Assembly: GCA_023078555.1 (NCBI GenBank)
Contig: CM041200.1
Location: 2,550,001 to 2,614,000 of the forward strand
Origin: Ulva prolifera
Taxonomy: Eukaryota; Chlorophyta; Ulvophyceae; Ulvales; Ulvaceae
DNA length: 64,000 nucleotides
Reading direction: 5' to 3'
Below, piece after piece: positions 1 through 59,110 of the stretch (position 1 is its first letter; each line of letters opens with the position of its first letter). Made by a program: the position numbers and the translations under genes. The notes beneath the pieces were generated by a model that saw only the letters and a program-made list of their open reading frames with translations, ran no database searches and was not told where the DNA came from.

Positions 1-811
1 ACCCAGCCGAGCTCAAACGCACCGCTTTGCGGAAAATCACCCGGAGGCGCCCAAGCCCTCGAGCAAGGCTGCGTGCGCGCTCCCTGCTTGTCAAGAAGTT
101 TGTGAACATGACTGCCATGCAGCGGTACGATCACGCAAAGATGCATGCGGCGCTCCTTCCCCGGGCCCTCAGACTAGCAGACCTCCGGGTCATGGGTGCT
201 ATGGTGGACCTTGCACTGACGTCTGTTCAAGTGCGCCCATCTCCTCTTTTTGTCATTGGTGCTCCCCCCCTCGGGTCATGTGTAAGCCCCTGCGGTGCTC
301 AAGGTTGGGGTCGTATATGTGTTCACACAGCAGAGAAAGGAAAGAACAAGCACAGCCTTTGCACACAGTTTCTATCTCTATGATTGGATGGTCGCACACA
401 TTGCCATTACGTAGCTGTGATCTGACTTGACCGGACTCGCATGCAATGATTCGAGCGCGGCAATGTTGCAATGGTTTCGTGGTGATTGGCTTCAGTGCCC
501 CCAGTCTCGTAGCAGTTTTTGTGCGTGTAGCTGGCGATGAGGCAGCTGCTGCAAGACAGTGTGACGATCTGCCACTCAGCTCATCCGGTCCAATACAAGC
601 ATGGGTTGTGGGTCATATCAGGGGAGGTCATCCCAAAGAAACGCCGCCTTGACATCCAGAGTGTCTTGAGGCTGTCCCCGTCCGCAGCTGAACTTTGCTC
701 GCACGCAACTGCAGTGGTGCGCAGCTGTTTTCCTGATTTGCCGGACAATGGACGCCATGACTGGAAGGTCAACAGTCATGGACTAGCATCTTTGCAATCT
801 CACAATTCTGA

Positions 812-3800
812 ATGTTGCAGCTTCGTGAGATCGTTGGCGTGGCGGCAGCCACTAGGAGGCCACTGGAGCTGGACCACCTTGTCCAGCACTACAACTCATT
901 CTCGCCCAATCTGCATGATGATCAACTGTCAATATTGGCGTTTTCCTCGATTTTCAAGACAATGTGCGATATTGACAGCCAGCAAGCATCAATCACACAG
1001 CTGCTGGAATCTGATTACGAAGCAGCTCGGGCCTCCAATGTCATGACAGCATTCACAAATGTGGGGGAGCTATTCACTTTCATGGAGGCCTTTGATTCTG
1101 ACGCATACCTGACGGCTACCCCATCATGTGAAGATGTCTGTCTGGACTTGGGGATACTCCAACGTTGGATAGCAGATCTAAAATCGCTGCATCCGACATT
1201 ACAAAAAGGCCTGCTGCTCTTCGACTTGTCTTCCCTCAGGTTAAGCGTTCTTGAGACAGCAGAGACCACCATGAAAGCATTCATTAAGCTGGCGAATGAT
1301 TGGCTCTACGACAACTGCATACGGGTTCGAGTGAGTCTCTTATTGTAGAGTGTTGCTTCTTTCAGCATGCATTAGTTAGGCTTCTGCCACGGACGAGCAT
1401 CATACAGCGCATGGTGATTGGCCTGTGATTGATTGCAAGCTGTTTGCTTGTGCAGGCTGCAGCGGTCAGTGCGTCAGACGGCATTGGGATTGGTGCTCCA
1501 CCATCTGACCTCAGCGACTTCATGGCATGGGTCAATAGGAATGGCGACCACTTTGCGGGCGATCAATCCGCCAGGAAACATCTCATGCAGTCAGTTGAAA
1601 GCTTACAGCGTATGCATTCTCAGCTTGCTCAAGAGCGGTCAAAATTCAGTAAGGTGTGTGCTGGTCTGTGCTGGAGGATAATTGTCACTTGCATCAGTTC
1701 GTCCGATGAGCGGTAATTAGTCGATAAATACATCTGGTCCTTCACTCGGATAGCATGTAGGAGCGCGTGGGATCACGCAATGATCGTGAGATGGAGAGCC
1801 TGTCAGCTGCAATGGAGGCGTTTGATGGCATGGCAGCTGTGCTGAAGGTGTACAACGATCGATGCGATCACGCACACATGTACTACCAGGAGCGCATACC
1901 TGTGATGGGGGCAAAAGTCAGTGCCAGAGTCAGGGAGATCTGGTCTCATGTGCAGCAGATTATGAGCCATGCCAGAAGCGATTCAGGCCTGGCTGCAATC
2001 GGTGGCGATCCACACGCAATGCAGCAGATGGCGGCGCAGCTGCGTGCTAGTTTGACGGAGTTGGTCTCTGATGCTGCTGTGCTAGAGAAGATTCAGGAGA
2101 TGCTGGTGAGTGAAGGGCGCCAGGCGCCATCTGAAGCTCCACTGATCAGCAAAGTGAAGGAGTGCACACGTCACCTGGACAGTCTGAAGCACCTGTGGAA
2201 CAGCATCGCGCTGTGGACCCGCGTTAGTGTCACATTCTCCAGCGCGACACTGCTGACAAGCACAGTCAAGGTGGCCACGTTGAATCGGGCCCTGGCAGAC
2301 CTGGATACAGCCATCTGTGCATGGGAGGCTCGGACGTGTGCTGATGGCGTATTAGATGTGGAGGGCTTGACTCCATCTGAGAGGGCACTAGTTGATCGCT
2401 TGCGTGCCGTGCACACAGCTTGGCAGCAAGGCTCAGAAATCCTGCCAGAGTTGGTGAGCCCATCGCTCCAGGAGCGGCACCGAGCGCAGCTCGAGCGGGA
2501 ACTGCAGGGCCTGCGATCGACACTGGAGGGATCCAACAGGCCCATCGACCGATTCCTGTGGCTTGGTGCTCCCCCTGATCCGGGGTCCGAGCTGACCTTG
2601 TTGGATCAAGGTGATCCTGATGTAGATGAGGTGCAGCCCCCTCCTGGCGTGCAGGCCACGTGTGGTACTGTGATGTGTTTCCAAATGGGAGCTACGCCTG
2701 CCAGCTGCACCTCTCAAATGAGTCCGTGTCTGTGTTCCTACGTACGACTGCGTTGGTAAATTTGCACAGCTGTATCCATGATGCGGGCAAGCTTTTCCAA
2801 TGCAGATTTACAGTGTAGCTCTTGATTCGGAGTGACAATGCAAGAGGACATGTCTAGACTTCCAAGCTGCCATGCATTTCGTACACAATGTTTTCGGATG
2901 GCCTGGATTCTGTGCAGGCTGTGCCGTTGGAGTCTACTAGTAAGGGCAAGGCAGTGGTGATGCATGCTGTGACATTTGCTACAGCACTGGTGAACGCTGC
3001 GGCAGTCAAGACAGTGAGCCTTGCAGCTTTTGTCGGGCCACCGCTAGTTCTAGAAGACCCCAGCCTGGCGCCTGCACTCGAGGGTGCCAAGCTGTGGCGC
3101 ATCCTCTCACTGCTCACGATCTCGGGTGCTGCAAAGGCTGTCTTCAAGCGCTTGTACAAAGCATCTTCTGAGGACTCCCAGGTCCTACACAAATTGATGT
3201 GCCTGCGAGAACGAGTCAGCAACCTTCGCCTGGAACTGTCCGTTCGCAGAGAGTATGGCTGCCTGCTGTTGACAAATCTGCCAGAAGTGCTATCTACAGT
3301 CAGAGAAGCCAGCGATGCGACCGCGTTGCTGCTCTCTGGCCAGGCAGTGACCCCCCAGCTTCGCAGTGAGTTCTCAGAAGCAGAGGCTCAGCTAGCGACA
3401 TATGAGTCCGCCTTGCTTGCGGCTGACAAGACGCAGACTCTTTGGCTGCATCTATCTCGTATACTGGCTGAAGAATCCGCCCAGATGCTTGTCAAATCGG
3501 ACATGCCCGCGTTCCATGAGGTACAGACACGGTGGAGGGTGATGCAGGTCCAGATCATGGACGGGGCCGCCACCCTCGCAGATGCGTCTGCTCTGGCCGG
3601 CCCGCTGTCGCACTGCTCAGCAATGCTGCAGGTTCTGCAGCGCATTTACAACCGCCTGCTGACATGTACATCGGCCATGCGGGACAACTTCCCACGCTTC
3701 CATCTGTGCAGTGACGCCGAGGTGGTGTCTGCGTTGGCCTTCGCCCGTGCCCCTCTCGAGCTGCCACCTTCCATGCTGTCGACATGTTTCCCGGGGGCCG

Positions 3801-6800
3801 TGGCCTTGGTGACCGACACCCATGAGGGGGGCGGAGGCCTGTGCGTGATAGCGGTGCAAGGCTGCAACGGGGACACCCTGCAGCTCCTCGAGCCGATCCC
3901 GGTGGACCAGGCACCGCTGGCTGAGTGGCTTGCACACTTAGAGATCGCCATCAAGTCGGGCTTGCGCACGCACACGGCAGCAGCGCTGAAGCTCGCGTCA
4001 ACGATGGACTCCAGGCTCTGGCGCTCGGCGTTCCCGCAGCAGGCGATGTACCTATGCGATGGGTGCACGTTCACATTCACGGTCGAGCGTGCGCTTGCGG
4101 CGCTCGCATCCGGGGAGAACCCGCACGCGCTGCGCACGTGCTCGGAGATGATGGCGGTCCGTGTGGAGTCGCTCACGCAGCAGGTCGCGGCAGTCAAGGT
4201 GGAAGAGAGGCCGGGCCTGCGGATGCTCGTCCTCGCCGCCATTGCACACCGCGACTCTGTGGCGCGCCTGCTCGCCGAGCGCGCTGCAGACCCCGCAGCA
4301 TGGGCGTGGCAGCGAGAGATCCGGCACAGCTGGCGGCGAGATTCGAACGAGTGCTATGTGCAAGTCGCCGACGTGCGGGTCCCATTCCAGTGGGAGTACT
4401 GTGGGGGCCACATCAGCGAGGCTGCGCTGCTGCTCGCACACTGTGACCGCTCCGTCGCCCTGGCTTGCGCAGCGCTGCATCATGATGGCGGTCTGCAGCT
4501 CATACCTCCAGGTCCCTCGAGCGCGGGAACCCCCGTGCCGTGCTATGCCGAGGCGATTGCGCGGGTATTTGGGCGATTCCTGGTGTCGGTGGAGTGCACA
4601 CCCAAGCTAGGCTCTCTGGAAGTACTGAGGATGGTGCAGGCACGTTGCTGATCTGTGCTGGACACTGAAATATTTGCATGTGTGCGAACATGGCCAATGT
4701 CACGAACGGTCGTGTCTGCAGGGGATGATTGCCATGAATGCATGGGGCTTTTTTGAGAATGTGAGCCGCTTGTCTCAGGACATGGTGTCGTTCCTATCCA
4801 GTGTCGTCTTGCAGCTGCAGGCAGCTCTCGCAGCCCGCATCGAGAGCACAACGGTCGCAAATGTCACGTTTGACCTGCCCCATCAGCCAGTCCTACAGGA
4901 TGCAGTGAGCCAGCCCTTTGCGTTGATGTTTTCTGGTCCCAGTCCCAGTCATGCCACACTGGCACCACGTGCGCAAAGGCAGCTCATCGATGAGTTCTTC
5001 GCTTCTCACTCCAGACGGGTTGTGCTTATGGCTGCGCCAATCTCGCTCATGATAGAGGCAGCGCTCAGGTGCGCCCATGGGCAAGCAGCCTGCTGTTGTG
5101 CTGGCCCCACTCAGTTTCTGGTGCTGTGTCAGATTGAAGAGGGCATGTCACCCTGCTGTGAATACACAAGACAAGTGCGTGCCTGGCTACAGGCAGCAAG
5201 GACTGCGACAGGCTGATCAAGCATCGCACGCTACTGCGGCCTTTCTGAGGACGCTTCGTATGCAGCTCCCTGCTTTCTGCAACACCCACTGCTTCGGGTC
5301 CTGCATGAAGTTTCTCACCAAATGTGTGTGGGACCAATGCCAAGGGCAGCGCAACACGTCTGCGCTTACTTGCAGCAGGAGAGCTTGTGATGCCATGATT
5401 GCGTCCATTCTTCCTGAGGACATGAAGTCATGTGCGAGTGAGATTCTTGTTGAGGCTTTTGGTCCAGACCTGGGACTCAGCAAGCGCCAGCTGTCTCGGA
5501 GCCGAGCAAGCACAATCGTACAGCACCAGTTTGATGCGATGAACTCCGCATTCTTAGATCTGGATGGAACTGGATCTGACCTGGAAGAACAGAGGGCCAC
5601 GGCGGCAAGGTGCAACACCCCAACCCAAGTTCCGCGCATTCCTCGGCACACCTTGAAACTCGATGAGGCTCTCGACTCTGGGAACCTGGAAGCCAAGAGT
5701 CTCATCGACGATCAGGGCTTGCGAGTGCTCAAGCCCAAGGTGTGTTGCCTGCATGCCTGGAAGGGCTGCCCACATGTCATGCGGCAGCTGGTGGAAAGCT
5801 CTTGTGTCTTACACTGCAGGCCACGCTGGAGCTGATTGACTTGCTGGAGGGGCTTGTGTCATCACATGCATGTACCATGATAGTCGGTCCACCAGGCTCT
5901 GGCAAGACAAGCCTTTGGCATCTACTCAAGACGGCTCTGCAGCAAACTCACATGATGCGAGATGAAGCTGTCATGCTGACACCAGAGGACGTAGTGTCAA
6001 CACACCATGTGAGCTCTCCTGTTTATGTTCCATGTTGCACGTGCTCACCGTAACGGTCCTGTTGTCCAGAGTTGTCATTGTCCCGATGGATCTGGCTGTG
6101 TCATCATGTAAACATACGTACGTACCAACGAACATGCAGACAGAACATGCCAAGAGTTGGATGACTTTTTGCAGATTCATGCTAATGCAATGAGCCTGGA
6201 TGAGCTTTTCGGGTCATCAAGAATGCGGGCTGAAGTGAACGATAGTGGAATCATCGGCAGCGTTCTGCACCCAACAGAACCTGGCATACACGCAAGGACA
6301 GTGGCATCCGCTGCTGCTGGCGGTGACCCCGGCGCCTCAGCAGAGAGTGTGCGCCCGCCACATTTTGCAGCAGGTCATTCCTGGTTGGTGATAGATTGTG
6401 CCCTTGAGGGGGGCCATGCAGACCAACTCGCTCCCCTGCTGCTGGGGCAGGCTGTGTGGTGCAGTGACGGCACGCGGGCACGCATCCACGGCGGCCAGAG
6501 GCTCCTATGGGAATGCACTGATCTGAAGGGGGCGACGCCTTTGACCATATCTACTGTTGGCATCTGTGCTGTCCCACCAGCTCTCATTGATGCATATGCC
6601 ATAATTGACGGAGTACAGGATCTTGCAACAACACGATGCCCACTGCTGAAGCTGGTGTGTCAAGACGCACACCTGCCATCTCCAGTGTTCGTGCCCTGAA
6701 ACTACGGCGGCAAATCCGGCGTTGCTGCAGGAACAACTCCACCAAGTGTGGCGGTTCGTGCCAGGCATCGTCCAGCATGTACACGGCAGCCTGCTGAAGG

Positions 6801-9800
6801 GTGCTGGGCTGAGCCAGACATCCCGCGTCAACGACCGCTGGGTCACGGTCATTGCAAACAGCATCTCAGCTCTGGCGCCAGGAACTTTCAATGTGAACTT
6901 GACCCTCTGGGATGCTCACAGCTTCCAGGGCAATCGCACCGCAGCTGACTCAGCATTGCTGCTGCAGCTGTGCATCATCTTCATTGTGTCCTGGGCAGCA
7001 CGCGGAGCATGTTCAGCCCTGAGCATGGACATCTCAGATGATGTGCTGGAAGCGATGCTGCGACAAGCGTTCCAAACTCAGGATCTCGAGTGTGCTCCAC
7101 CTGAGGATGCGCTGTGGAGCAGCTACATCGATGCACCAAACATCAGGTGGACAAGCTGGGTTGAAATGCTGCAAGCTCGTGCAGCTGCAAAGGGCCCCGA
7201 GTTGGTCACGCCAGATGGGACACTATTGTTAGCACCACTGTCAGGCACGAGTTTATGCTTGAGGCACCTGATGGGTGCTGGCATGTCATCAGGCGCGAGC
7301 GTCCTTATTGAAGGGCGCACACAGGCCACTTTGGACGTATTCTCCCGGTCGCTTCTTGGCAGTGTCCGCCCGATGGAGTCTGACACATCTTTCCAGTGGA
7401 TCTCATGTGCCACATCCGCCGTATCAGCTGTGCACTGTCTCAGGGTGCGGTGCATCGGCTGCCGCCTGTGCTTCATCGACTGCATATCAGATTATTTGAT
7501 GCGCTTGCAGATGCATGTGGAGAAGTTTCAGTGTGTGCCCGCAACTGTCCAGGTGCTCATCAGAGGCTGTATGGCAGAGATTCATCCCCGACTGATGAGA
7601 TCGAAAGACTCCAGCCGCATTGCCCTGCGCATTGATGACGTGCACGTTGGCAAACCCGGATCAGACGCACCGTCATCGATACTTGAGTTCATCAGGTCAT
7701 ACCTGGATCTCCAGGGGTTCATTCATCCCGCTCAGGGGTACACGTGCTGCACGCCCGACCTGCAGCTGTGTGCATCAGCTGTCCCGTCACTTTTCTCCGC
7801 ATCCGCTGAAATAGCCAGGACTCGAGCAAAGCTTTTGTGCATCTCCCCAGCTGAAGTCCGCTCGTCGATCATGAGTGGATCCGTGCTGTCCAAGGTCTCC
7901 CTGATGCAGCTGCAGAGCACATGCGATGCATTCATGAGCGTCATGCAGGACAGCATGGGTGAGTGCATGCCAACTGCACCAGCGGCCCAGTTGTCATCAT
8001 TCCTTGCGTCTATCATCCAAGGAGCCCACAACAGCGGGATCGCGGTGGCACCAGGTCTATGCTTTGACATTGATGCAGTCCAGCGTATGCTGGAATGCGT
8101 GCACGCCGACCTCACGCTGCCGTCCATAGACGATGTGCAGCCTGTGTCATCAGGTCCCAGCACGAAAAGTGCTGCTTCCGGGTCTGCAGTCATCGCACTT
8201 TTTGGCTGCATGCTAGAAGGTCAAGACTCAGAGGAGGCTCTTGCAAGACGTGCTCTGACAACAAAAATCACTCGAATGCAGGTGCGATGCGGCGCTGCTG
8301 CTGCTGGCCATTACCCAAGTGTACCCATGCATACGTTCTGATCAGCAGTGGCGTTGGCCAATCAGCCTTCTCATGTGCTATTGAGCTGCAGGACACCCTG
8401 AAGGGGTCTGACGAGCTGCGGATGGAGCATTTGTGGCTGGCCATTGCAGCTGAATGTGTCAATAGTCTCTGGAGCAACACAAGCAGCCACAGGAGCTTCA
8501 TCACAGAGCACGTTGGGTTGTTGCTGCAAGATCAACTCACTGACCTCTGTCGATTCTACGACGAAATCCCAGAGACCAAACAGGCCTCTCATCAGGCGGG
8601 CACCCTTGATGTAAGCCAGCTCGCACTTGGTTTGTGGAACACTGATCTTGCAGCAGAGGAGGTGTGGTGTTGCTTGAGCTTGGCATGCCTCGCGTGTGCT
8701 CCGATATCCACCAAAGCAGTCTAGGCTTCCAACCATCAGCGTATGGTTCTGCAGTCAAGCGGCGACGATGATGAGCCTGAGCCAAGGCGATCTAGACTCC
8801 TAATCGGCCTAGATCAAGCTCAAATCCAGCAGCTGGCGCTTCTGACCGTTACGTGTGGCATTGCTGTCATTGCAAGTCGGCCGCAGGTGGTCAGGAAATC
8901 CGTAATGCCCCTGCAACCTGAGCTGCTGCAGGCATTGCTGCTGCAGGGCATCCGCCTCGTGCCCGAAGCAGACACGGTGAGCATAGTCCCCGGTCTTGGT
9001 GATGCAGTCATGTTCACCACTCTCTCCAATGTTGAGGTCGTGTGTCACACAGGGCGGCCATCCGCTACATCTCATTCCAGAAGAGCGACAGCCAGGCAAG
9101 TCCCCACGGAACTACCTGAAGACACTGGAAAGCACTGCTGAATGTTTGAGAGATCTACGGTTTGTCAGCGACATCAGCAGACTCATCACTGCTGTACGGC
9201 GCCCTTTTGCCATGGGATGCTGCATTCTGGTGTCAGCATACAGTGGGATTCAGGCTATACACTGCGTTGCGGCATACTTGCAAGCATCTGTGGCCCCATT
9301 GTGGGCAGAGGATGTTGTGGGCACTAGACATGGAAGCAGGTCGATGCTGTTGCGGCAGTTGATACGTGCTGCGGCGTCGGCGGCCATGCACTGCACTCCT
9401 GTGATCATTGTGGCCTCCAATGAGCTGATGCAAGATCCAGACCAGCTTTGGCTGTTGCAAGAATTCATTGTGACTGGGATGCTCAACAACATCGCATCCC
9501 CGTCAGAGCTGCTTCGGGCATTCTCTGATGACCTGCAACAGTTTGTTGATGCGATTGCAGCATTAGGATGTGTAGATGAGCTGCAAGAGGTCCGTACCCT
9601 TGCACCTGTGGTGGCCTTGCTGCTTGGCATGTTATGTGCATCTGTCGCCACTTCATGGTAGGAAACTGCTTTTGCAGGCGCTGCCTGGCGCTGGTCTGCC
9701 TTGGCCGAAATCACATTCAAGCACAGATCAACCATCTGGCTCGCGTACAGCTGATCACGAAACAAGTGTGAGCACAAACAGAAGTGGTGTTGCAACCTCC

Positions 9801-12800
9801 ACTGTGCCTCAGAGAGCACGCAGTGAAGCCAAGGTGATAGATGCAGAGCAGCGGCTCATGCATCGTCTCAACAGGTCTCTGGAAGACGTGGCAGAGCTGC
9901 TGAGAGTCTGCGTGTGCATGCACCCAGCAGACCTTCATGAGGCCAGAGGAGCATGGTGTGCTCCCTCTTGGCACAAAGCCTACTCATTGCCCGACAGAGG
10001 GCGGACGCCAACGTCTGCCCTGGCAAGTCAGGAGGCCGTGTAGCATTCCAGGCCTGCCTGTAACACTAGACTTTTGTGAATCAGTGGCCACGTTGTGGCG
10101 CCTGCATCGGAGAATCGCCATCACGCATTATGGCTTCATGCAGTCCCTCGCTGTTTCGAAGAAGCATGATGGTACAGATGTCAGACACATCATCGCCGCT
10201 CGACAGGTTGGCATGTCAGCACATGATCATGTGCAATTACCAGCACATACTGAGGCCATGGAACAACGATCTGGGAAGAGAAGAAGCAGAGGCGCCTCGC
10301 AGTGTGACCACAGCCGCTCAACTGCTGCAGAGGACATGTGAAGGCACAGTGTCTGGGTTGACATTCATGGAAGTAACAGAATTTGTGACCGAACCCGTGC
10401 TGGTGCGTGACTGTTGTCGTTGAGTGGTGGAAGCTGTGGCAGGCTGCTATTGTGTGTGTGTTTGAAGGCACTAGCGAAGAGTCGAAGGCTCGACACTGAA
10501 CAGGCCTGCTGCCAGACTCTGGTTCAGGTCCTAGCGGTTTTGACTGGCTCACAGAAAGGGCACCCCTTCCTGTAACATGCTGCGCGTGATTTGCTGGCAT
10601 TTTGAGATCTGAACCAGCTTACATGCAGAGGCTCATCCAAGAAGCGGCCAAGACTGATAATGCTAATAGCCATGTCCCCAAGGGCGGCCTTTCGTACTCC
10701 GCTGTACTGTCTCAAGCATGTGCCAAGCATGTCTTTGCAGGCAGGACCCTGACACCAGGTACTGCTGCAGCAATGCGCAGTTCCTTGAAACAATGCAGCT
10801 CTGCTGTGCTGCATATACATGAAATTGGGAGGACGTACCTGGAGGGTGTGCTTCCTGTTGCTGCCGGTCTGATCTGAGTGTCGTTCCTCTTGCAATGCCT
10901 TCTGTCCGGATGGTGTGAAGGTCTGTCCACAGTTTCAGCATCACCAAACCTCATGCCCCAAATATGCAGGCAATTGTGCTCACATTGAGTTTGAAGTGGT
11001 ACCATGCCCACAAAACTTATTGCCCCATGTGCAGGTGTGCAAATGCAATGCAGCATGCATAAACAGCTGCAGCTCCTGGAAGTAGCCTCCATAATTTACA
11101 GTCGTTACCACAAGCACATGAGGCATCATCTGGGACAGCTCTCGCATTTCCTGCAGCTTGCAGAAGGATTGAACAAGACGCACGAGCAGCTGAAAGAGGA
11201 TTTAAGTGTCTCCGCAGGCCAATCCACACACCAGGCTGCCAGTGAATCTGATACCAGGGAGCACCTGTCACAGGCCACAGCGAGGCTAGAGCAGATGCTT
11301 GCATCACAGGCTGAGCTGGAGTCCATCGTCAACAGCGCAGAGAAGGAGGTCGCATACATCAAGGTAAGCTTCAAGCCCCCTCCCTGTCCCCCTGCATAGG
11401 TGGTAAGCTCTCTCGGTCATCCATAATCAAGCTGGTCGATGCAGAGCCAAGCAGCGGCGGACATTGAGGAGCTGAGGCTGCAATATCGGACGTCGGTCAC
11501 AGCTGTCCTGCAGCTGGCAGAGAGGGACCTCGTGGAGCTCCGCACGTACAGTGCCCCCCCAGCAGCCGTCACGCAAGTGCTCGCGGCCGTGTGCACCATT
11601 CTGGGGTTCCCATCCGATTGGGAGTCGGCGCTCACGCTGATGAATCACTCGGATGTGACCCTCATCCAGCGCATCACGGACTTCGATGTGCTAGCGTTGC
11701 CCCAGGCACGCCTCATGAAGCTTCGCGCCCTGCTTCAAGATGCGGAGCTGCAGCCAGGCCGAGTGGCAGCGGTGTCAGATGCAGCACAGAGTCTTGCTGT
11801 GTGGGTGCGTGCGGTGGAGGCCCACAGCAGCAAGGAGGACATCCGCAGGCGGATGCTGCGGGCCACCCGCGCCGTCCTGGACAGCTCCAGTGCCAGCCAG
11901 GTGCAGACCCACTCATGTGTGCACAGAGCGCGCTCCGGGCTGTTACAGAATGGCGTGGGGACAGCCCTGCAGTGCTGAAGTAGCTGTGCCCATGCACAGG
12001 AGCAAATGATCGAGAACGCGGTTGAGCTTCAGCAACTGAAAGCGACTGTGTCAGAACTGACGCAGAAGATAGATGCTGCAATGCATGGCCACAGAGTCAT
12101 TGACACGTCTGCTCGGGCGCGGGAAGGGAAGCTGTCCACGCTGGCGGCGCTGAAGGAAGCGCTGGCACCACGCATCGCAGCCACACATGCCCGTGTTGCA
12201 GCTCTGCAGAGTTGCCTGAGCTGCCTCCTGGGCGACGCTTTGCGCGCGGCAGCGATGTGTGTATATGCCGGCATGCTGCCCTCTGCAGCACAGGTGTCAT
12301 TCCAGCGCGAGGTGCAGCAGGCCCTGCACGAAGCTGGTGTGCCACACACGCCCGACCTCGCTCTGTCGCAGTGGATGGAATTCCTGGAGCAGCAGTACAC
12401 ACTGCTGCCGCAGAGGGTCGTCATGGATGCCGACTTACAGCATACCATGTACTGCGTGTCCCTGGTACGTCATCACTTGCACCTCAAATGCCTCTCTTGT
12501 GGTGCTTTCGTCAAACGGTGGGACCGTTTGGATAGCTCACAGGCACGAGAGTCTGCTCCACGTGTATGTGTGTCTCAAGCGTTGTGCCATGTGGTCCATT
12601 GAACTCTGCTTCAGGTGAGAGGGCTGGTACTGCTAGTGGATCGTGAGGGTGAGGGCTTGGGCTTGTGCAAGGCACTGCATGCACAAGCGCCGCAGGGTCC
12701 ATGGCTTGAGGTCACCCTGGACTCTGTTGCGGCGCTTCACAAAGCTGTTGATGCGATGTCAAGCGGCTGCACCGTGGCGGTGGCTGTGGCAGATATGGAC

Positions 12801-15800
12801 GTCGCTGAGCGGCTCATCCCATCGCTCGCCCACCACTTACAGCTTGTGCCGCCCAGCACAGCCAACCGCTTGCTGCTGCACACCCGGTGTGCCATCGCCC
12901 CCGCTCACTCCCACAAGCAGCACCGCTTACAACCGTCAGTGACCTTAACATACCGCTGTTTGCATTGCAGGCTACCCGGGCCATGGCCTCCTGCGGTGCA
13001 AGCCAGCACAGTGATGCTTAGCTTTGCAGCTGGCTCAGCTTCAGCACGGCTCCACATGGAGTCTGCGATGATTGCTGCTACAGACCGCACGGCAGAGGAG
13101 TGCCGCCGCATGGAACTCGCGAATGTGGCTATGTGCAAGCGCAAGTGCAGCGAGATCCGCGGCGCGCTGTACCAGCTGACTTCCTCCATGCAGGCTGACT
13201 GCTGGCGCGACCCTGCGCTCTGCAGTGTCGTCATGCGGCGCCTCAAGGGCTGGTCTCAGGTGGAGCAGGAGCAGGCCACTGCCGAAGCTCGGCTGCAGGA
13301 GATCATGGCAGCAGCAGCCTGCTTCGCCCCTGCACTGCACGTGACCGACGTACGGAACACTACTCTCCGTGCACGTCTCGCGCGCTTGTGCCTGCGTGTG
13401 TGAGCACCCCGGAGGAGGTGTTCGTGAAAATGTACGCAACCGCGGCAGCGCTGCAGGCACTGTGGGCAGCGATGACGGCTCTCAGGCGACACAGCTTAGC
13501 GTTTGATGTTCCGTTACCCCACGTGCTGCCATGGTGGCAATCTGTTTTCCATGCGGCACTCAGGGCCGCTCAAGCCTCGGCTCTTCACCGCACATCGCCC
13601 CGTCCATCTGGTGCTTCTCAAGGTGGGAATGGCGATTGTGAAGCAGCAGCCTCAGAGTCCGATGTGGGCAGGCCCGAGGCTGGTGTCAGTGAAGCAGAGG
13701 ATAGCAGCACCAGCGACTCGGGCTCTGAGAGTACCGGCAGCTCGGACTCCTCCAACAGTGCCTCAGGCAGTGCGCGTTCAGCCGCCAGAGACCTGGTGAG
13801 GACGACGACAGCCACAGAATCCACGCGCCTGGCTGCCCGCCTGCGCGCCAAGATGTTGCTCCCGGTGCAAGACTTCTGCGCTGCGCTGCTGCGCTCAACG
13901 GCATGGTGGTTTGACGCCGCACACTGCACGGTCCTCATTTCTATGTTCCATACGTTCTGGGGCGTAGAGCATTCGTGCGGGGGGAGCAGTGGGGGCAGCT
14001 CGCAAGATGCACAGCTCATTTGTGACCTTCTCTGCCGCCATACATCCTTGCTACAGATTCCTGTGCTGCTTACGACAGAGGGGCCGGGAGGTGGGGACCC
14101 TGGCGGCGAGTCTGATGGATTGGGGGCAGGACCACCTGGCACATCAGTCGACACCACAAGCACGGCAGAGCAGCACAGGCCGGCCATGCGGCTGGACTCT
14201 GCAGACGTTGAGTCTCTGGCATGGCTCGAGAGCAGGTGCCCGTCGCTGACAGGTCTTGTGGCGGCCATCAAGAAAGACCCAGCCGCCTTCTACTGCAAGC
14301 GCCGGCCAGGCCTGCTCGTGGAGCAGCTGTCCATGCCGTTTGCGCACCTGCGCGCTGCCCTTCGCGCCCTTCTTGCGATGATGCTGTGGCCCTCAGAGGC
14401 GCGCGCGACGCTGGCATGGCTCTCTGAGACGTGTGCCAGCACAAGCTTGGCCGGCATCAAGCACACCGTGCATGGAGTGCCAGACACGTTCACGCAGCTG
14501 GACGCGGCATCGCGCTTTGCGTCTGCACTGCTGTGCTCAGACGGCTACAGGCCCATTCTCATGCATGCAAATGCAGCCGAGCCGCCGGCCCAACTGCTCA
14601 TGCACCTCATCAGCGTGGACAGGCGGGGGGTGCTGGCGTGTGGGGCCCCAGCCGTGTCTGCCGCAATGGAGGCCCTGAGCACCGCCTCCGCGGGGGCAAC
14701 TCCGCGGCCGTCACACACCCAGCTGCGGGTCCTGCATCTCTCCGCACACGTGCCTCTGGCAGCCTGCAGTGGCATGATCGAGGAGGCGGCGTCGCTGGGG
14801 CAGTGGGTCCTCCTGTCGTGTGCACACCTGCGCCCTGACATCTGCCATGCATGCGTGGCCGTGGCAGACGCACTGTGGCAGTCAGACTCTCTGTCGCCGA
14901 GGTTCCGGCTCTTCCTTGCCTGCCCCACTGCGGAGCTCTGGCGCCTCCCGCTGCGGTACGGCCTGCTGCCTGTCAACTATGGAGGCGATCGTGCTGCGCC
15001 ACCAGTAGCCCTTCATCTTCTACGCGCCATGGACTCCGCAGCAGGCTCGCAGCTGGGGCTGTTTGACGACATCTCCCCGGATCCGCTGCACTTTGCAAAT
15101 GTGGCCCCGGCATCGCAGCCAGTGCCAGCGCGGCTGCCCCTGCACCACCGCTCCGCGCTACAGCAGTGGGCGGAGCGCATCGCAGGGGTGCTGGCGGCTG
15201 TGGTGGAGCGCACGTGTGGCATCGGCGCGTGCGGTGTGCTGGCAGACTGGCGGTGCGCCTGCACTGACCGGGACTTCATACACGTGCTGCACTTGCTGAA
15301 GGCCATGATCGGGAGGAGCGAGGGCGGAGGCGCGCATGCCGCGCGCCCCGCTGACCTGCAGGCCGCCGTACTGCAGGTGCTGCACCCCTCTCCGCAGTAT
15401 TCTCTGCCAGCATACTGCTGTCTGTTGGCGCTCATGTCACTGGTCAGCGGCTAGAAGGGCAGCACTTGCATCCTACAGTCCCACCTTACACTGGTCAGCA
15501 CAGGACGAGTTGAGGCAAGATGCAGGTTGCGGTCGAGCTTGGTCAGGGGCAGGCAGCCGTGCGCTCCGTCGGGCAGCAGATCTTGCAGGACGAGCTGGGA
15601 TCATGCCATCTGCGGGTCGGGGTGCCTAGCCGGCAGGCTGGCCCGGCATCTCGGCTGGCCCGCGAACCCATCGCATCCTTGTCCGCGTTCCTTAGGAAGG
15701 CGGCCGCAGGCAAGGTCGGGAAGTACAACCCAGATGGAGGAGGCTGCATGCACGGAGCTGGATGTGCTCCGGCATGCCAAGCCCGGGGCACACGCCAGGT

Positions 15801-18090
15801 GCACTTTCTGCAGAGCTGTACCCGAAATCTCTGGCATCCTGCACTTGAAGGGATCGCAGACTCCTGGGGCTGCAGCACAACGGCCGCTGCTTGTGCAGGT
15901 CTTGAACGTCCTGTATGGCTGCTCCCCGCCCACAGCCACGCCAGGCGCCACATCCAGCGCCCTGGAGGCAGATGTTACCCGCCTGCGGCATCAGCTCACC
16001 GGCATACAGCACCAGATCGATGCGCTTTACCGACGTGCGCAGCGGCGCTTGGCGCAAGCGCTGGATGAGCCCAGCGAGGCGTCCACGCCATCGAGGGGCA
16101 TGCGTGCAACGGACTGCAGCTGCGCACCGCTGGGCCCAGGCAGCGAAGCAGCCTCTCAGCTGCCCACCCTGCTCAACGCCCCCCTTCCACCCCGATGCAC
16201 ATCCAGCGACAGCCACTCGGCAGCTGGCGAAGGGCCCGATGGCACGCAAACTCAACAGAGCGCATGTGGGGAAGCTGAGTGCCCCTCCGATGGCGGTCTA
16301 CAAGGCGAGCAGCCTGCGGAAAAGGCAGTGGATGTAGCTGCCTCGGCTGACATGCATCTGTCGCCCCCCCGCACGGGCACATTCAGACGGTTCAGTGCTT
16401 TAACGGCCACTCCTGGCCACGCACGCAGCCTACTGCGACGATCATTCGCCGCCGCTGGGGACGGTGAGCAAGGCCAGGAGGTCAGGTTCCGACCTGGTGA
16501 TACCTGCAGGAACACCGTGGCAGCGTGTGGTGTCGGCGTCAGCCAGCAGCTTGGGCGGGCCGCGGCCTCACGTAGCGTGAAGCACCCCGGCTTGGAGGAG
16601 ACCAACACTTTGGAGCCCTCAGCTGCAGGTCGGCTGCCGGGCTGGCCACGAGTACCTGGCTATGAGAGACCCGGGCGTTACAGTGTTACAGACAAGGCGC
16701 CGCGGCGAAAGAGAATTACTCTGAGGAGCACAGCCTCGGCCACAGCTGCGCCATCACAGCCGCAGAACATCCTTGTCCTTGGCAGCACGGCAGCCAGCGA
16801 GGCGGGTGCGTTGACGGACAGGTCCCAGACCCTCTCCGGAGGTATTTCTACGCAGAAGAGCATGCAGAGTGTTGGTGGTGCAAGCAGCAAATTTGAGATT
16901 GGTGGTGGTGGCAGCTTGGAGAGTGCAGATCCATCTGAGGCAGAGCGGCTCAGCTCGGGATCTAGGAACACATGGCAAAAGCCGCCCAGGTTGCGGGAGC
17001 ATGCCACGAACAGGAAGCGAGCCGTACTGCTGGGTCAGTGTCTGCTGCAAGAGGTGGTGTGCATCGGGCAGGCTGTGAGTGGCGCCCTTGCATCTGCGGC
17101 CCGGCTGCAAGCCTGCTGTGCGCGTGAGGGCACGCCCGCCGTGGAAGTGGGACGTTTCCTGAGCACGCTGAGCAATCATAACATGCCAGCGGGCTGGACA
17201 GCGGGCAGGGACAGGGGCGGGGGCCAGCACTGTGTATTTGGGCCATGGCTACAGGCGCGTACAGTCGCAGGGTGGTTGGAGCGCGTACGGCACCAGGTGC
17301 AGCGGCTCCAAGGGCTGGTGGACAGCGACTGGGGCACCGTGTGCTGGGCCGCGATACTGCAAGACCTGGCGTGGCCGGGGGCCCTGGTTGCGGCGTCTGA
17401 GCGTCTGTTTGCAGCCTCGAACCAGTATGTCCTGGCGCAAGTGGGCACACTTGCGTCCGTCGGCGTGTGCCAAAAGCACCGTGGGTTGGAGGGAGTGTAC
17501 TTCCAGCTGCCACCGGCAGGTGCGTGTCCTGCCCCGTCCCATCTGCAACACAGCAAATCAGCCTCCGTGCACCTGCACTGCTGCCGCAAGGCTGCTGGCC
17601 CGCCGCCTCCTATGCTTGCTGGAACGCTGCCCCACCAGGCTTTGCGGTGAGAGTACATTCATGCGTCGTGCCATAGACTGTGTGTGGAGGCTGAGGGATG
17701 CAGGCGCCTCACAGTTTGGCGAGACATGCAGGGTGTAACACTGCGGGCGTCGATTCGAGGCTGCACCTTGACGTGCCGCACATAGGCACATGCCCCTGGA
17801 GGAGCGACCGGGCCGCGGATGCGGGCTCCACGCACGCTGCCATCTTGCACTGCAAGCCGGCGCTTTCCGCAAGGAAGGGCGCGAAGCTGCTGCCTGGACA
17901 GGAGCCATGTGATCGGCCTGACGGTCAGATTGCTGTAGCATGGGTGCAAGATGATGCTGCAGGAGCAGGGTCTCACCTAGTCGACGGTCTGTGTGGTGGG
18001 GCGCATGTGGCGGCCGCAGCACACATGCTGAACCAGGCATGCAGTGAGGGGCTAGTGTTGGAGGAGACCTTTGCAGCATTCAAGGACTAG
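812..18090 (+). CDS. Dynein heavy chain, divergent and probably non-motile (multi-exon)
   Basis: The pieces match dynein heavy chain order from tail to C-terminus. Tail exons run from about 820 to 2760. The linker (about 2890-4400) ends in a recognisable HRDSVARLL segment. AAA1 remnant follows at 4380-5085, AAA2 at 5816-6650 with an intact GPPGSGKT loop at 5886-5909, and AAA3 at 7200-7850 with IDDVHVG at the Walker B position. AAA4 is at 9150-9600, stalk and microtubule-binding domain at 11004-12180, AAA5 at 12180-12840, AAA6 at 14500-15050 (GQWVLLSCAHL), and the C-terminal domain at 17000-18090. Many introns of about 60-200 bases separate exons; the longest open exons encode 540-700 residues. 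The last splice I place joins LPPAG near 17519 to the exon at about 17730, ending at the stop at 18088-18090. The 5' end is uncertain and could lie upstream of 812 or of the window. AAA1, AAA3 and AAA4 ATP sites are degenerate. It resembles the non-cytoplasmic, non-axonemal (DNHD1-like) class in spirit, but orthology is inference. Confidence 0.9.
4380..5085 (+). other. AAA1 remnant of the dynein-like protein
   Basis: This stretch aligns with AAA1 from the EYLG motif (here WEYCGG) onward. Where dyneins have GPAGTGKT, this gene has GPSSAGTP at 4511-4534, so the Walker A Lys and Thr are absent. After an intron, the Walker B block WCFDEFNR reads WGFFENVSR (4743-4769), replacing Asp-Glu with Glu-Asn. 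The normally invariant MNPGYAGR segment is also unrecognisable (around 4920-4980). The fold can still be followed, but no residue set for ATP hydrolysis remains. Confidence 0.85.
11004..12180 (+). other. Dynein stalk: coiled coil 1, microtubule-binding domain, coiled coil 2
   Basis: Heptad-rich coiled coil 1 lies at 11004-11364, then an intron. The microtubule-binding domain is at about 11505-11830. It keeps the landmarks of the family: L-x-x-x-D-(L/I)-x-E-(L/I)-(R/K) near its start, the PP-x-x-V turn (APPAAV), the V-C-x-I-L helix, a DW-x-x-A helix and the closing WVRA. Coiled coil 2 begins after 11830 and continues in the exon from 12006. This is the best conserved part of the whole gene, in contrast to the ATP sites. 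Confidence 0.88.
15500..17000 (+). other. Long low-complexity insertion before the dynein C-terminal domain
   Basis: Between AAA6 (ending about 15450) and the recognisable C-terminal block (from about 17020) the gene codes for several hundred residues rich in Ser, Ala, Gly, Pro and Arg, with one short coiled-coil-like segment near 15960-16080. It remains open and in frame with the C-terminal domain. A shorter acidic Ser-rich insert lies at 13640-13800 in the AAA5-AAA6 region. Standard dyneins have no such insertions here. An intron lies near 15455-15530. Confidence 0.6.
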
Positions 18091-18635
18091 ATACTTGAGT
18101 AGGAGTTTTGTGGTTCCCAGGGAGAGCGACGAGCGACGACTGTATCATGACGCCCTGCTGTGCCAGTACAGCAGTGCACCAGCCTCTGCAGGTAGATCCA
18201 ACGGGGCCGATCGCACCCAAACAACAGCCAGCTCCAGGCAGGCAAGCTTGAACTTGACTTCACGGCATGTTCACGTGATCCACCAGGCGTACTGACTCGG
18301 GTCTGTGCATTCACTGTAAAATAACTGACTTGCATGCTTTCCGACCTGGCGTCAGCTTGGTCCCGGGATGCGTGCTCGGCGTGTGGACGTGACGTGCAGC
18401 ACTGCCCTGTGTTTTTGTACACGCGTCAATGCAAAGTAAAGCGATAGCACGTACCTCAGAGAAATGCGATGTGAACAGAAGAGCGTCGTGAGAGAATGTC
18501 TTTCTCGACTCCTGCTCGACAACACAGCACGTCTAGAATGTACTGCCCGACCGGCACGTCGAGCGTGTACTCATGACTGTGCCTTTTTTTGAAGGCCATC
18601 GGCCATCATTGCACTGCCATGATGTAACATGAGGG
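18091..18635. other. Intergenic, dynein 3' end to SLC19 start
   Basis: A TGTAA motif at 18315-18319, about 225 bases after the dynein stop, is a candidate poly(A) signal. The rest should hold the 3' UTR and the promoter of the transporter gene. I see no other feature. Confidence 0.4.
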
Positions 18636-20981
18636 GTGCTTATGTTTTGGTGGAGGCTTGAAGCTCAGGGGCTTCGCACTGTTGCCTTCGTGTCTCTATG
18701 CGGTGTTCGATTTTGGAACGCCTTCAAGCCGTCTGAGCCGCACATTGTACCGTTTCTATCGCAAGTAAAGCAATTTACCGATGATCAGGTACAACGCCTG
18801 CGCAAGTGCTTTTCCTCAGAATGGACCCTGAGTTGACGTCGTACCTGGTGGCTGTGATGCAGATTTTGCTCGACATCTTCCCAATCGTAGTGTACGCCCA
18901 TCTCATTGCAGTTGCAGCAATACCAACTGCAGTGCAATGGCTGGGGCTGAAAGGCAGTGTCTACACGGCGGCCGTGGCCCGAATTCTCACCCGGCTCCTC
19001 CTCATTTGGGGCAGCAGTTTACTTGCTATGCAGCTGGCAGAGGTGTGACACTGGCCGTGCTCTACCCAGGGCCTGAATACGTCCAACACCAACTCTGCAC
19101 AAGTGGAACCCTCGTTCGCAAGATCACGTTCCGATCAGTACTTTGCACATGTGCAGGCCCTCTTTGGGATAGTGCTGGCTGGTGACATTGTCTTGGATGC
19201 CTATGTCTTTTACCTCGTGCCCGAAAGCTCGTTCATGCAAGCCGCAGCAATCACTCAAGCTGCGTCCCGTCTAGGCTATGTCACTGCTGCAGAGTTCAGT
19301 GAGGTGGCCATCACACTGCTGGACATGTCACTGACAAGCCTGTTCTGGGTGTCCCTAGTAGCCATCCTGTGCGCCACCGCGCTCACGGTCGCCCTGCCCA
19401 GGCCTGCAGAGCACTCCCACACCCTACAGGTACAACTCCACCCTAAATTTCCCTGCACACTTTGTAATGACTGAGTCCGAGCGCCCAGGCCGCGTGCGGA
19501 ACGCATGAAGATGTGCCCTGCTGCCACGCCCCCAGCGCCATGCAAGCCCCACGCAGTCAGCACACATATACCACCAACTGCTCACAAGCTCAACCTCGTA
19601 CAGCTGGTGGACATCGCGGAGGACGATGAGCGAGGCATGCTGCCGCCATGCCAGCCCCGCAGCGATTATAATCCTCCCCCCTCCCCCATAGCTACCGCCC
19701 CGTCCCAACACCATGCGCTGCGGCCCCCACCCATCGCCACGCCTGCCCCCACCATCTCCCCCACCCACAGCGCTTCCATCGGCTCGGCTGACGGCACCGG
19801 CGCGTTCTTGTTGAAGACGCCGCACCTGCAAGACCGGCCGCCGCAGTCCCCCGGCAGCCCCCTCTGCCGCGCCTCCATGGAGCGCTCCGAAGGGGGCCCC
19901 CGTCCGCATACGCCTCCGCACCTGCCGCAGCGGCCTCTGCTCGGCAGCACCCCCCACCACATGGTCGCCGCCTCCCCGGTGTCCGAGATCGAGCTGTCGA
20001 GGGCCTGCAGTGCAGTGGCACCGCTGCGGCTGCCGGCGTCGCCGCGCACGCATGCGGCGGTGCCGGTCGAGGTCACCGGCATGTGGCGCCGCGGCGGCGT
20101 CACGCTGGGCGTGCTGCGGCGCATCGCGGCGGAGCCGCGGCTGCAGCTGCTCAGCTTCTGGTGGGCGGCCGTGTACGGCCCGGTGTTCATCTTCGCCGAG
20201 AGCTACATCACCAACGTGTACGAGCAGGTGGACGCGGGGCAGGACTACAATGGCCACGTGGACGCGGCCGCGGCGCTCGCTCGCATCGCGGGCGCGCTGT
20301 GCGCACCGCTGCTGCAGCCGCTGGCTGCAAAGCGGCCAGGGGTGGCGCACGGCGCGTGGCTCGCAGGCGCCGCGGCATGCATCGCCGCGATCGCCGGAGC
20401 CGGCAGCCTGTTTGCGGTGTATGCATGGTATATCGCTGCGGTGGCACTGCTGCAGCTGCAGCTGTGCGTGGTGCAGGCGGAGAGCGCGGCGGCGGTGGCC
20501 GGCGAGTACACGGCACTGTTTGGACTGAACCAGCTTGCGACGCTGCTGCTGCAGGCCGCCTTCCAGGTGCGCGCTCTCGTGGCTGCAGACACGCGCGCGC
20601 CACGGATTGGATGGCTCGCTGATAGCAGCATGGGCGTCCTCCAGTAACAGCCTGCGGCCCGAGATGTGAGTGGTCGTGGGTTGCTGTGGAGTGAAGTGCA
20701 CACATGCGGCTCGTTGTTGTGTACCTGCTGGCTGGGCGGCCTGGTGGCGCTGCTCCGCTGCGCCGGCGCCTCTGCCCGCGAGACGTGCGCTGCAGGCCGC
20801 TGTGTGTGAAGGAGCGAGTGTGGCTGCCGTGTGCCTGAACGGGTTGTGTTGCATGCAGGCAGGGTTGCAGCTCAGCGGCTGGAGTGCAAGGACGCAGTTT
20901 GCGGCTGTGGCGGGGTGGACGGCTGCTGTCGCGGTGGGGATGATGCTGTGGGGCTGTCGTGCGGCACAGCGGGCTGCGTGA
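18636..20981 (+). CDS. SLC19-family (thiamine/folate-type) membrane transporter, possible frameshift
   Basis: The N-terminus carries the SLC19 signature PSEPHIVPFL (vertebrate carriers have RPSEPFLTPYL), followed by transmembrane segments up to LLAMQLAE, an intron 19043-19156, and further segments to 19429. A long Pro/Ser-rich cytosolic loop (about 19505-20100) precedes the second half, which keeps YNGHVDAA (family: YNGAVEA) and ALFGLNQLATLLLQ (family: ALVFGINTFxALxLQT). An intron from about 20570 leads to the last exon (about 20858-20981). The family carries thiamine, thiamine phosphates or reduced folates across membranes; the substrate cannot be told here. Oddity: homology runs through EWTLS directly into SYLVAV, but these lie in different frames at about 18826-18845 and no GT-AG pair fits. 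So there is a one-base frameshift or a sequence error. Downstream frames are fully open. Confidence 0.8.
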
Positions 20982-57374: not shown

Positions 57375-59110
57375 CTGTCTTGGCCTACGCGGCCGTGGGG
57401 CTCGCTGGCGTATTGGCTGTTACTGGCCAGCCTGCAGGTGGGCCCTTCTGATGTGCGTGGACCTGGGGTATGAGCTGGCGAGGCTCACCATTTGTGTACA
57501 TTTCATGCAATCGCGATGACTTCCTTCGCGTGTTCTGCCGCGCATGCGTCACCCTTTCTGATCGTGTAGTGCATGGAATATGCAGGTGTTCCAATCGCGA
57601 CGGGCGTCGCAGGCACCACCAGCATGTGCTCCGCTGCCGGCGTCGAGTACTCCGGCCGCTGGAGTATTCCCGGCAACGGTATCACAGTTGAAACGCTGGA
57701 GGAGTGCGCCGCGATGTGCGAAGGGGACGCACAGTGCAGCGGCGCGACTTGGATCGCATGGGAGCCTAGCCAGGCTAACCCTCCAGACAACTGCTGGTTC
57801 AAGGCCTGGGACCCCGCCGCCGCTGCGGTGCCCTGCCAACCCTCCAACTCCCCAGACGGCCGCACATACGCCGCAATCATAACCCTCCCCACCGGCGCCA
57901 CCGATTGTGCTGCCATCCCATACCTGCCAGACCCGTCCATTGACTGCGTCCAGGAGAAAGAGGACTTTGGTCAGTTCTCAGGCTCCAGTCCCGTACTGGG
58001 CCCAGCAGAAGGTCCAATGGCAGAAATCGTCGCCGGTCCAGAAGCCGCAGGTCCTACGGCTGTTGCCCCTGAAGTTGAAGCTGTTGCACCTATCGCTGAG
58101 CCCACGGGCGCCGTTCTGGTTGCGTACGAAGGTCTTGACACACTCGAGCCCCCCTTCATCGCGTACAGCGGTGCCGATTACAGTCCCAACCAGAAGCCTC
58201 CACCTATGGTGGCTGTGGAGAACGTGATGACCGGTTTCATAGCAGACAGCGTGCTTGATTGCGCTTCCGCATGCAATGACAACCCAGCCTGCAATGCCGC
58301 CTCGTACTACGGCAATAACCCCATGGACACCTGGCCTGCGGGCGCTACATGCTGGATGAAGACCCTCGGAGTGCCGTGTGAGCTGCCGTTCGACCATGAG
58401 GAAACAGAGTTGCCTGGCTCCGTCTTCCTCCTTGCACAGGAGAGCTGTGGTGCGCCCCAGCCACACCTCCGCCCCCCTTCATCCCCCTTCCCCACATCCA
58501 CTGCTCCATTCACATTTAGCTCTCAACGCATTGGTGACAGAGTTGTGCTTGCAGCGGCCGCGCCCGTCGGAATGGCTGGTGCTGTGTCATGAGCAAAGTT
58601 TGTGGTGTAGGTGTGATCGCTCCGACAGCGGCTCTGATCCCTGGCATGGCACCTGATATGGCACCTGACATGGCCCCACTTGATACAGCACCACTCGATG
58701 GGCCAATGCTCGTGGCTCCAGGCGAGGCTCCCCTCGACGGGACTGTGCTTGCCGATGGTCCTGCCCTGGCTCCCACCGACACGACTCGCGACTTTGTGTT
58801 TGGGGCCAGCCTCGCGCCGACCGATGCTGGTGTCCCACTGCCTGTTGACGCCACAGACCCCGTTGCTGTCGACCCGATCCAGGGCCCCCTTCTCACAACT
58901 GATGTTCAGTCCCCAGAGCCAGCAGCTGTGCCAGTGGACGCCGGCCTTGGCGTAGATGATGGAGGCATTGAGGACTTTGATGACTCAGCCTCAGATGAGA
59001 CGACCCCGGAAGCTAGTACCATCGATGGTGATGTGGATGGTGCCACTGGCCTTTCCGCGGCCCTCATGACCGCGGCCCTCATGTTCGCCACCGTCTGCCT
59101 GCTGGCCTGA
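57375..59110 (+). CDS. PAN/Apple-like secreted surface protein, probably GPI-anchored (copy A)
   Basis: Supported exons are 57586-58449 and 58611-59110, joined in phase 1. A hydrophobic first exon near 57375-57445 (TVLAYAAVGLAGVLAV) ends in the required phase but lacks a visible ATG, so the start is unresolved. Exon 2 holds two Cys-rich modules. The first (57615-57900) has the PAN/Apple pattern ECAAMC, QCSGATW and NCWFKAW. The second (58220-58445) has CASACNDNPACNAASYYG, CWMKTLGVPC and FLLAQESC. Exon 3 encodes a Pro/Ala/Asp-rich stretch with MAPD and APLDG repeats, an acidic segment, and a terminal hydrophobic run (GLSAALMTAALMFATVCLLA) ending at the stop, typical of a GPI-attachment signal. 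PAN modules bind proteins or sugars outside the cell. A paralogue follows at 60997. No enzyme activity is suggested. Confidence 0.65.

Follow-up and report, generated by a model that had tools for sequence, protein, structure and literature searches.

Introduction

Dynein heavy chains are treated as motors in which AAA1, the first site of the ring, is indispensable. Laboratory dyneins mutated in the AAA1 Walker A motif do not bind ATP at that site and hence show no ATP-driven release. Here we describe a heavy chain gene of the green alga Ulva prolifera in which the same site has been lost in nature. The gene lies at the start of a 64,000-nucleotide window (assembly GCA_023078555.1, contig CM041200.1, positions 2,550,001 to 2,614,000, forward strand) and extends beyond its left edge. 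Unlike that of the laboratory mutants, its loss arose naturally, affects more than one motif and reaches into AAA3 and AAA4. Searches of an open-access library, judged by titles and the opening lines of abstracts, showed no description of a natural AAA1 loss in a dynein heavy chain. In ordinary dyneins, ATP binding at AAA1 causes the tip to release the microtubule, and AAA1 is the principal site of hydrolysis while the other sites are regulatory (excerpt of PMC7215579; for the catalytic residues, excerpt of PMC4879348).

Several described heavy chains resemble this gene in part. It is like DNAH6 (IDAg) and the Chlamydomonas chain 8glv_Fm in its stalk and microtubule-binding domain (MTBD), in the order of linker and ring and, weakly, in its tail; DNAH6 is the human IDAg, and the divergent N-termini of the single-headed inner arms fix their place in the axoneme (excerpt of PMC10266980). 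DNAH2 and I1-beta (IDAf) give the top whole-protein scores. By description only, the gene also recalls DNHD1, a dynein-related, very large, atypical and flagella-linked chain of animals, which has been called an orphan “ghost gene” that is perhaps becoming a pseudogene (excerpt of PMC8754002). A similar likeness by description holds for Chlamydomonas heavy chain 206178, which is likewise divergent, axonemal and green-algal, and for which the excerpt of PMC2239267 makes no mention of a lost AAA1. In that same excerpt, Wickstead and Gull (2007) set their threshold to keep out extremely divergent sequences, so similar genes may have been overlooked.

Results

The AAA1 site

All coordinates refer to the plus strand of the window unless stated otherwise. 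The Walker A and Walker B motifs of AAA1 are split between two exons, 2918-4639 and 4722-5068. At the Walker A position (4511-4534) the sequence is GPSSAGTP where GPAGTGKT is expected, and at Walker B (4749-4769) it is FFENVSR where CFDEFNR is expected; both losses had been proposed in the original prediction, and direct reading and alignment confirm them. HMMER aligns residues 943-1385 with residues 1443-1880 of bovine sperm DNAH2 (9fqr_D0), setting GPSSAGT over GPAGTGK and FFENVSR over CFDEFNR, whereas MAFFT with ten paralogues from the same genome shifts Walker A by two residues and sets AGTPVP over AGTGKT. The Walker A Lys is thus Thr or Val and the Thr is Pro, and both canonical residues are absent in either alignment. 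The Asp-Glu of Walker B is Glu-Asn. At the sensor I position (4917-4949), placed by MAFFT and by eye, FALMFSGPSPS replaces FITMNPG; the sensor Asn is absent in both pairings, with Ser opposite by MAFFT and Phe opposite by eye. The paralogue-invariant arginine of the AAA2 motif SRCG, which we take to be the arginine finger serving AAA1, is Thr (STVG). None of the active-motor residues that we looked for, namely the Walker A Lys and Thr, the Walker B Asp and Glu, the sensor I Asn and the SRCG Arg, is present.

The intron 4639/4722 needs a GC donor; the alternative is a GT donor, at the cost of two residues. Either choice preserves the frame and the motifs. A pattern search of the plus-strand frames from 2801 to 6200 looked for alternative exons restoring AAA1, which had been named as a way in which the original prediction could fail. 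These frames hold no G....GK[ST] other than that of AAA2 at 5886 and, by the pattern used, no D[DE]xNR-like Walker B, so that no hidden alternative exon restores AAA1 in this interval.

Elsewhere in the genome, by contrast, GPAGTGKT is kept at all 13 canonical dynein heavy chain loci, at 12 of them by a DNA pattern for GPAGTGKTE and at the thirteenth in its spliced model. The pattern matches 12 places, each inside a canonical dynein locus, and its reversed control gives no matches. DEFNRI is found by pattern at 11 of the 13; the two without it are the paralogue D2, which reads DEFNRL, and the locus on contig C7. The chains that the Ulva gene most resembles differ from it here: in the HMMER alignment DNAH2 retains both GPAGTGKT and CFDEFNR, and the DNAH6-type paralogue D5 keeps GPAGTGKT and DEFNR. 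These data support the view that AAA1 of this gene is unable to serve as a normal ATPase site.

AAA2 to AAA4

Alignment indicates that the loss goes beyond what was originally predicted: with the AAA1 sensor I, the P-loops of AAA3 and AAA4 are also gone, and that of AAA2 alone remains. In AAA3 the Walker A position (7313-7336) reads GRTQATLD instead of GPTGTGKS, although the Walker B IDD is retained at about 7631-7639. In AAA4 the Walker A position (9233-9253) reads SAYSGIQ, aligned with one gap as S-AYSGIQ, instead of GVGGSGKQ, and the Walker B position (9401-9430) is a dead VIIVASNELM. By contrast, AAA2 has an intact GPPGSGKT (5886-5909), the sole G....GK[ST] in the modelled protein, and its Walker B position (6385-6408, LVIDCALE) keeps the first Asp; no Glu follows that Asp, in this gene and in the paralogues alike. 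An AlphaFold 2 model of the AAA3 exon (6731-8281) reached a pLDDT of 36 and was not used.

A separate observation concerns D2 (C2:2463001-2483000), presumably an IFT dynein-2-like chain, which has a degenerate AAA4 P-loop (GRCGASSRG) and a strong AAA2 P-loop (GPAGSGKTTLW) near that of the gene in the window.

The stalk and MTBD

The stalk tip and MTBD are encoded by one exon (11445-11900, 152 amino acids), which matches Pfam MT on its own frame (E 4.8e-9) and on the joined protein (E 2.3e-10, 40.5 bits against a cut-off of 24). An AlphaFold 2 model of this exon, built from a ten-row alignment including the query, has a pLDDT of 89.4, and Foldseek returned 25 matches with E up to 0.001; judging from their titles, all are entries on dyneins or axonemes, and TMq reaches 0.83. 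The exon is therefore confidently predicted to fold as a dynein MTBD. Its best phmmer matches are 8glv_Fm (1.6e-16) and then DNAH6 (8e-14). Among the paralogues, the stalk and MTBD score best with D5 (68.0 bits, next 42.3), which by its own MTBD is the counterpart of 8glv_Fm and DNAH6 (2.6e-57 to 8glv_Fm). Like DNAH6-type chains, the Ulva gene lacks a loop insertion found in this region of paralogues D7-D9, presumably the “flap”.

Dynein identity and kinship

That the gene encodes a dynein heavy chain, as originally proposed, is borne out by the paralogue alignment and by a phmmer search of the joined protein against the PDB. Among the best 60 of the 101 matched sequences are DNAH2 (1.3e-48), Chlamydomonas I1-beta (2.6e-45), 8glv_Fm (1e-39) and DNAH6 (1.2e-36), with cytoplasmic dyneins at best at 5e-28 (dynein-1) and 1.7e-27 (dynein-2). 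The matches to DNAH2 and I1-beta span linker-AAA1, AAA2 and stalk-AAA5. The joined protein used here has 4220 residues, the tentative C-terminal part being omitted. On single frames, Pfam domains follow in dynein order on the plus strand (DHC_N2, AAA_6, P-loop AAA at 1e-4, MT and D6); AAA2-AAA4 and AAA6 were placed in order by alignment. On the joined protein, the linker profile DHC_N2 reaches E 2.3e-28 (99.7 bits, cut-off 31.9) and AAA_6 reaches E 2e-9 (37.4 bits, cut-off 25.2), while D6, at 19.3 bits, falls below its cut-off of 30.5.

Within its own genome, no paralogue is more than 20% identical to the gene, and no second copy was found in the 88.9 Mb searched (44 contigs). The linker/AAA1 exon finds as its best other match an 87-residue piece of D2 (E 9e-9), and the AAA3 exon finds nothing better than E 0.08 outside the dynein loci. 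A tree sets the gene beside D5-D9 without starred support, its branch being about 10 substitutions per column long, and leaves it unplaced. A locus was counted as canonical if AAA_6 and DHC_N2 both matched there, the window gene excluded, and such counts are lower bounds; ten of the 13 were modelled as the paralogue set, the other three entering only through profile and motif searches.

The original prediction had likened the gene to a DNHD1-type class that is neither cytoplasmic nor axonemal. The second of these labels is not supported and is probably wrong, in that the best matches of the MTBD are axonemal inner-arm chains and a tail exon matches one of them weakly (E 0.034). On sequence grounds the gene is axonemal-like and probably of inner-arm origin.

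Gene model

Ten further dynein loci of this genome, whose introns have AG|GTGCG-like donors and TGCAG|G acceptors, served to train a simple exon finder, and the resulting path was curated. Paths obtained with introns made too cheap (255 exons; 73 or 38 exons) were set aside. The final model, with splice junctions predicted from sequence, has 27 exons and 4879 codons with no internal stops, and runs from -1057, 1.06 kb upstream of the window, to a TAG at 18088-18090. Its least certain stretches are 2565-2918, 9589-11035 and everything after 15442.

The first exon (-1057 to -836) and the start of the next, whose first base lies some 81 bases before the window and which occupies 1-230 within it, align weakly with residues 221-297 of the 8glv_Fm tail (77 collinear residues). 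Because the alignment begins at residue 221, the true N-terminus is placed further upstream than the modelled first exon. In-frame tail exons follow at 531-716, 821-1333 and 1456-1653; tail residues 291-478 align weakly with 8glv_Mm at E 0.25, a level where an unrelated protein also turns up. Exons 1761-2565 and 2655-2731, the second with a tentative junction, carry the end of the tail and the start of the linker (DHC_N2 profile positions 2-103, E 7e-4). A single 574-codon exon (2918-4639; genome match C5:2553137-2553982) then encodes the linker and the first half of AAA1, with DHC_N2 at E 1.1e-24 on the frame, and exon 4722-5068 encodes the second half of the AAA1 large domain (AAA_6 at E 5e-4 on the frame).

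The AAA1 lid and an insert follow at 5193-5739, where a paralogue-invariant Arg is Lys (column R1500K). AAA2 occupies exons 5820-6008 and 6175-6654 (AAA_5 E 1e-4 and AAA_7 E 2e-3 on the frame) and aligns with AAA2 of DNAH2, and the AAA2 lid and AAA3 share a single 517-codon exon (6731-8281) with 19-25% identity to five paralogue segments. The chain continues by alignment from the AAA3 lid to AAA4 through exons 8392-8610, 8755-8976, 9053-9589 and 9678-9955. It then passes, through exons 10207-10402, 10629-10758 and 11035-11363 of a constrained exon chain, across the AAA4 lid and the start of stalk coil 1, which belong to the least certain part. Beyond the MTBD exon, stalk coil 2 and AAA5 lie in exons 12000-12464, 12615-12886 and 12971-13349 (phmmer to DNAH2 3055-3606). 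The AAA5 lid and AAA6 lie at 13415-15442, with 12 of 20 invariant columns kept and a D6 match of Dynein_heavy at about 14768-14926 (E 3e-4, below the curated cut-off). The C-terminal part (exons 15899-17519 and 17732-18090) is a tentative, open in-frame chain with a long low-complexity insert; it has no PDB matches at E 10, and its likeness to a dynein C-terminal domain was judged by eye only. A 731-codon open stretch at 15455-17650, mostly of low complexity, apparently lies between AAA6 and this part.

Signs of maintenance

A mechanical list of open reading frames (ORFs) offers a test of maintenance that is independent of exon choice. Positions 1-18100 contain plus-strand ORFs of 751, 731, 597 and 563 amino acids, whereas the longest on the minus strand has 235. 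In 500 block shuffles the longest ORF had 515 amino acids and the fourth-longest never exceeded 231, and simple neutral decay is therefore unlikely. The long open exons of the original prediction are thus real features of the locus. Within the model, composition alone would predict about 163 stops, a figure biased by the exon choice, and codon preference is 0.029 against a null of -0.088 +/- 0.007 (200 resamplings).

Comparison with the paralogues suggests that erosion is selective. The gene keeps 74 of the 205 invariant columns (those with at least 8 of the 10 modelled paralogues present). With D2 left out, AAA1 has the lowest ratio of the 13 regions compared (identity to the paralogues 0.219, against 0.618 among them) and the MTBD the highest (0.263 against 0.382), so that AAA1 is the most eroded part and the MTBD the least.

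The genome also offers an example of decay. At C1:125019-125351 lies a dynein fragment, a partial copy with AAA_6 matches that was left out of the 13 canonical loci, which is 84% identical to D4 over 51 residues and has stops alongside. The window gene is its opposite, far diverged yet open, and the marks of a pseudogene that we looked for (stops and frameshifts, break-up into short pieces, or a parent of high identity) were not found in it. We rejected a pseudogene as the principal explanation on the strength of the long ORFs, the kept columns and the contrast with this fragment, bearing in mind that openness was among the criteria by which the exon chain had been selected. The evidence of the sequence supports the view that the gene is being maintained and is not in decay.

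Genomic context

The genome contains at least 13 ordinary dynein heavy chain loci and, with two exon matches at a single locus, a gene for p28, the light chain that belongs to single-headed inner arms. With this complement, the organism is very likely flagellated, with motile cilia. The 38 exon matches to the LHC domain make it very likely that the organism is a photosynthetic alga, and the LHC family and the splice signals speak for a green one. A search of the assembly for the RuBisCO large subunit, which would have served as a plastid marker, found none. Directly 3' of the dynein gene, at 18789-19396, are predicted exons of a strongly hydrophobic, membrane-like protein. Elsewhere in the window, a 702-amino-acid open frame on the minus strand (39546-41651) has leucine-rich repeats and an IQ motif, and an open frame at 57570-58589 has PAN domains.

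Discussion

We propose that the gene encodes a selected, non-motor and probably ciliary dynein that acts as a static crossbridge or scaffold. Taken as a whole, the chances of this proposal seem to us evenly balanced; its non-motor part is well supported by the sequence, and we infer the place and action of the protein. It would be a ciliary pseudo-motor, a divergent inner-arm-like heavy chain in which AAA1 no longer binds or hydrolyses ATP and the P-loops of AAA3 and AAA4 are gone as well, while the tail, the linker, the ring scaffold, the nucleotide site of AAA2 and a folded tip for binding microtubules are kept. If the gene is expressed, the tail may dock the protein on a doublet or another axonemal site and the tip may bind a neighbouring microtubule, with the nucleotide at AAA2 serving as a structural cofactor that stabilises the ring. 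As ATP could not bind at AAA1, there would be no release signal, and the contact would be static or passive, that of a crossbridge, spacer or brake and not of a stepping motor.

Several observations weigh against this proposal. The absence of stops and the paralogue-like codon choice are not independent proof of maintenance, because exons were picked partly for openness and with a paralogue codon table, and the long branch is also compatible with weakly constrained drift. In the stalk coil CC1, none of the five invariant columns is kept. An inner-arm origin is no more than probable, because the whole protein scores better with DNAH2 and I1-beta than with DNAH6 and the linker-AAA1 junction scores best with D2. 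The tail match to 8glv_Fm is weak, the list that contains it also showing an unrelated protein at E 0.32, and at E 10 the tail piece matches only itself in its own genome and no paralogue. Finally, the genome-contig and viral-contig collections scanned yielded no relatives, as expected for a eukaryotic gene.

The gene could instead be an algal orthologue of DNHD1, the animal orphan heavy chain, and share a role in building flagella. The size and flagellar context fit, since DNHD1 has 4753 amino acids and is linked to malformed sperm flagella (excerpt of PMC9916431), and it too is a dynein-related orphan. The closest chains among the PDB matches are ordinary axonemal ones, but no DNHD1 is named in the best 60 of the 101 matched sequences, so that this search cannot decide. 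We regard such an orthology as unlikely.

A place outside the axoneme is somewhat harder to sustain. As an assembly factor or non-ciliary protein, the product would be a dynein-shaped scaffold or a dominant partner, attached in the cytoplasm to dynein chains, to light chains or to microtubules. A ring and linker could still hold partners, and the weakness of the axonemal tail match is compatible with a cytoplasmic placement. Set against this are an MTBD that is axonemal-type by best match and a tail exon that aligns, if weakly, with the tail of an inner arm, the very part by which divergent single-headed inner arms are placed in the axoneme. We consider this role rather unlikely.

Strongly relaxed constraint, with the gene turning into a pseudogene, a fate proposed for DNHD1 too, would explain the extreme branch length. 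Yet random sequence of the same composition has no ORFs of 563-751 amino acids and would place many stops in the model, subject to the bias noted above. The MTBD still models confidently, and the decaying copy on C1 is short, close to its parent and accompanied by stops, which makes this explanation improbable. That the protein is an ATPase or ATP-driven switch working through AAA2 alone, its ring changing shape without stepping, draws on the intact GPPGSGKT and the kept Walker B Asp but is highly improbable, given the regulatory role of sites other than AAA1 and an AAA2 Walker B that, as in the paralogues, has no Glu after the Asp.

Returning to a selected, non-motor dynein, it is tempting to speculate that this gene represents a conserved algal class of ciliary pseudo-dyneins, inner-arm chains without ATP-driven stepping, in which the one nucleotide kept, at AAA2, serves as a structural cofactor and which form a permanent, ATP-insensitive doublet crossbridge or brake. 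Such a class is possible, but we hold it only tentatively. If it exists, a fixed part of the axonemal arms would be static by design. A maintained chain that has AAA2 and the tip, yet no working P-loop in AAA1, AAA3 or AAA4, would set the structural use of the dynein body apart from its motor use and offer a natural experiment on the purpose of the AAA2 nucleotide. It would also bear on whether orphan chains like DNHD1 are functional scaffolds or fading genes, and its occurrence in a flagellated alga makes the question testable.

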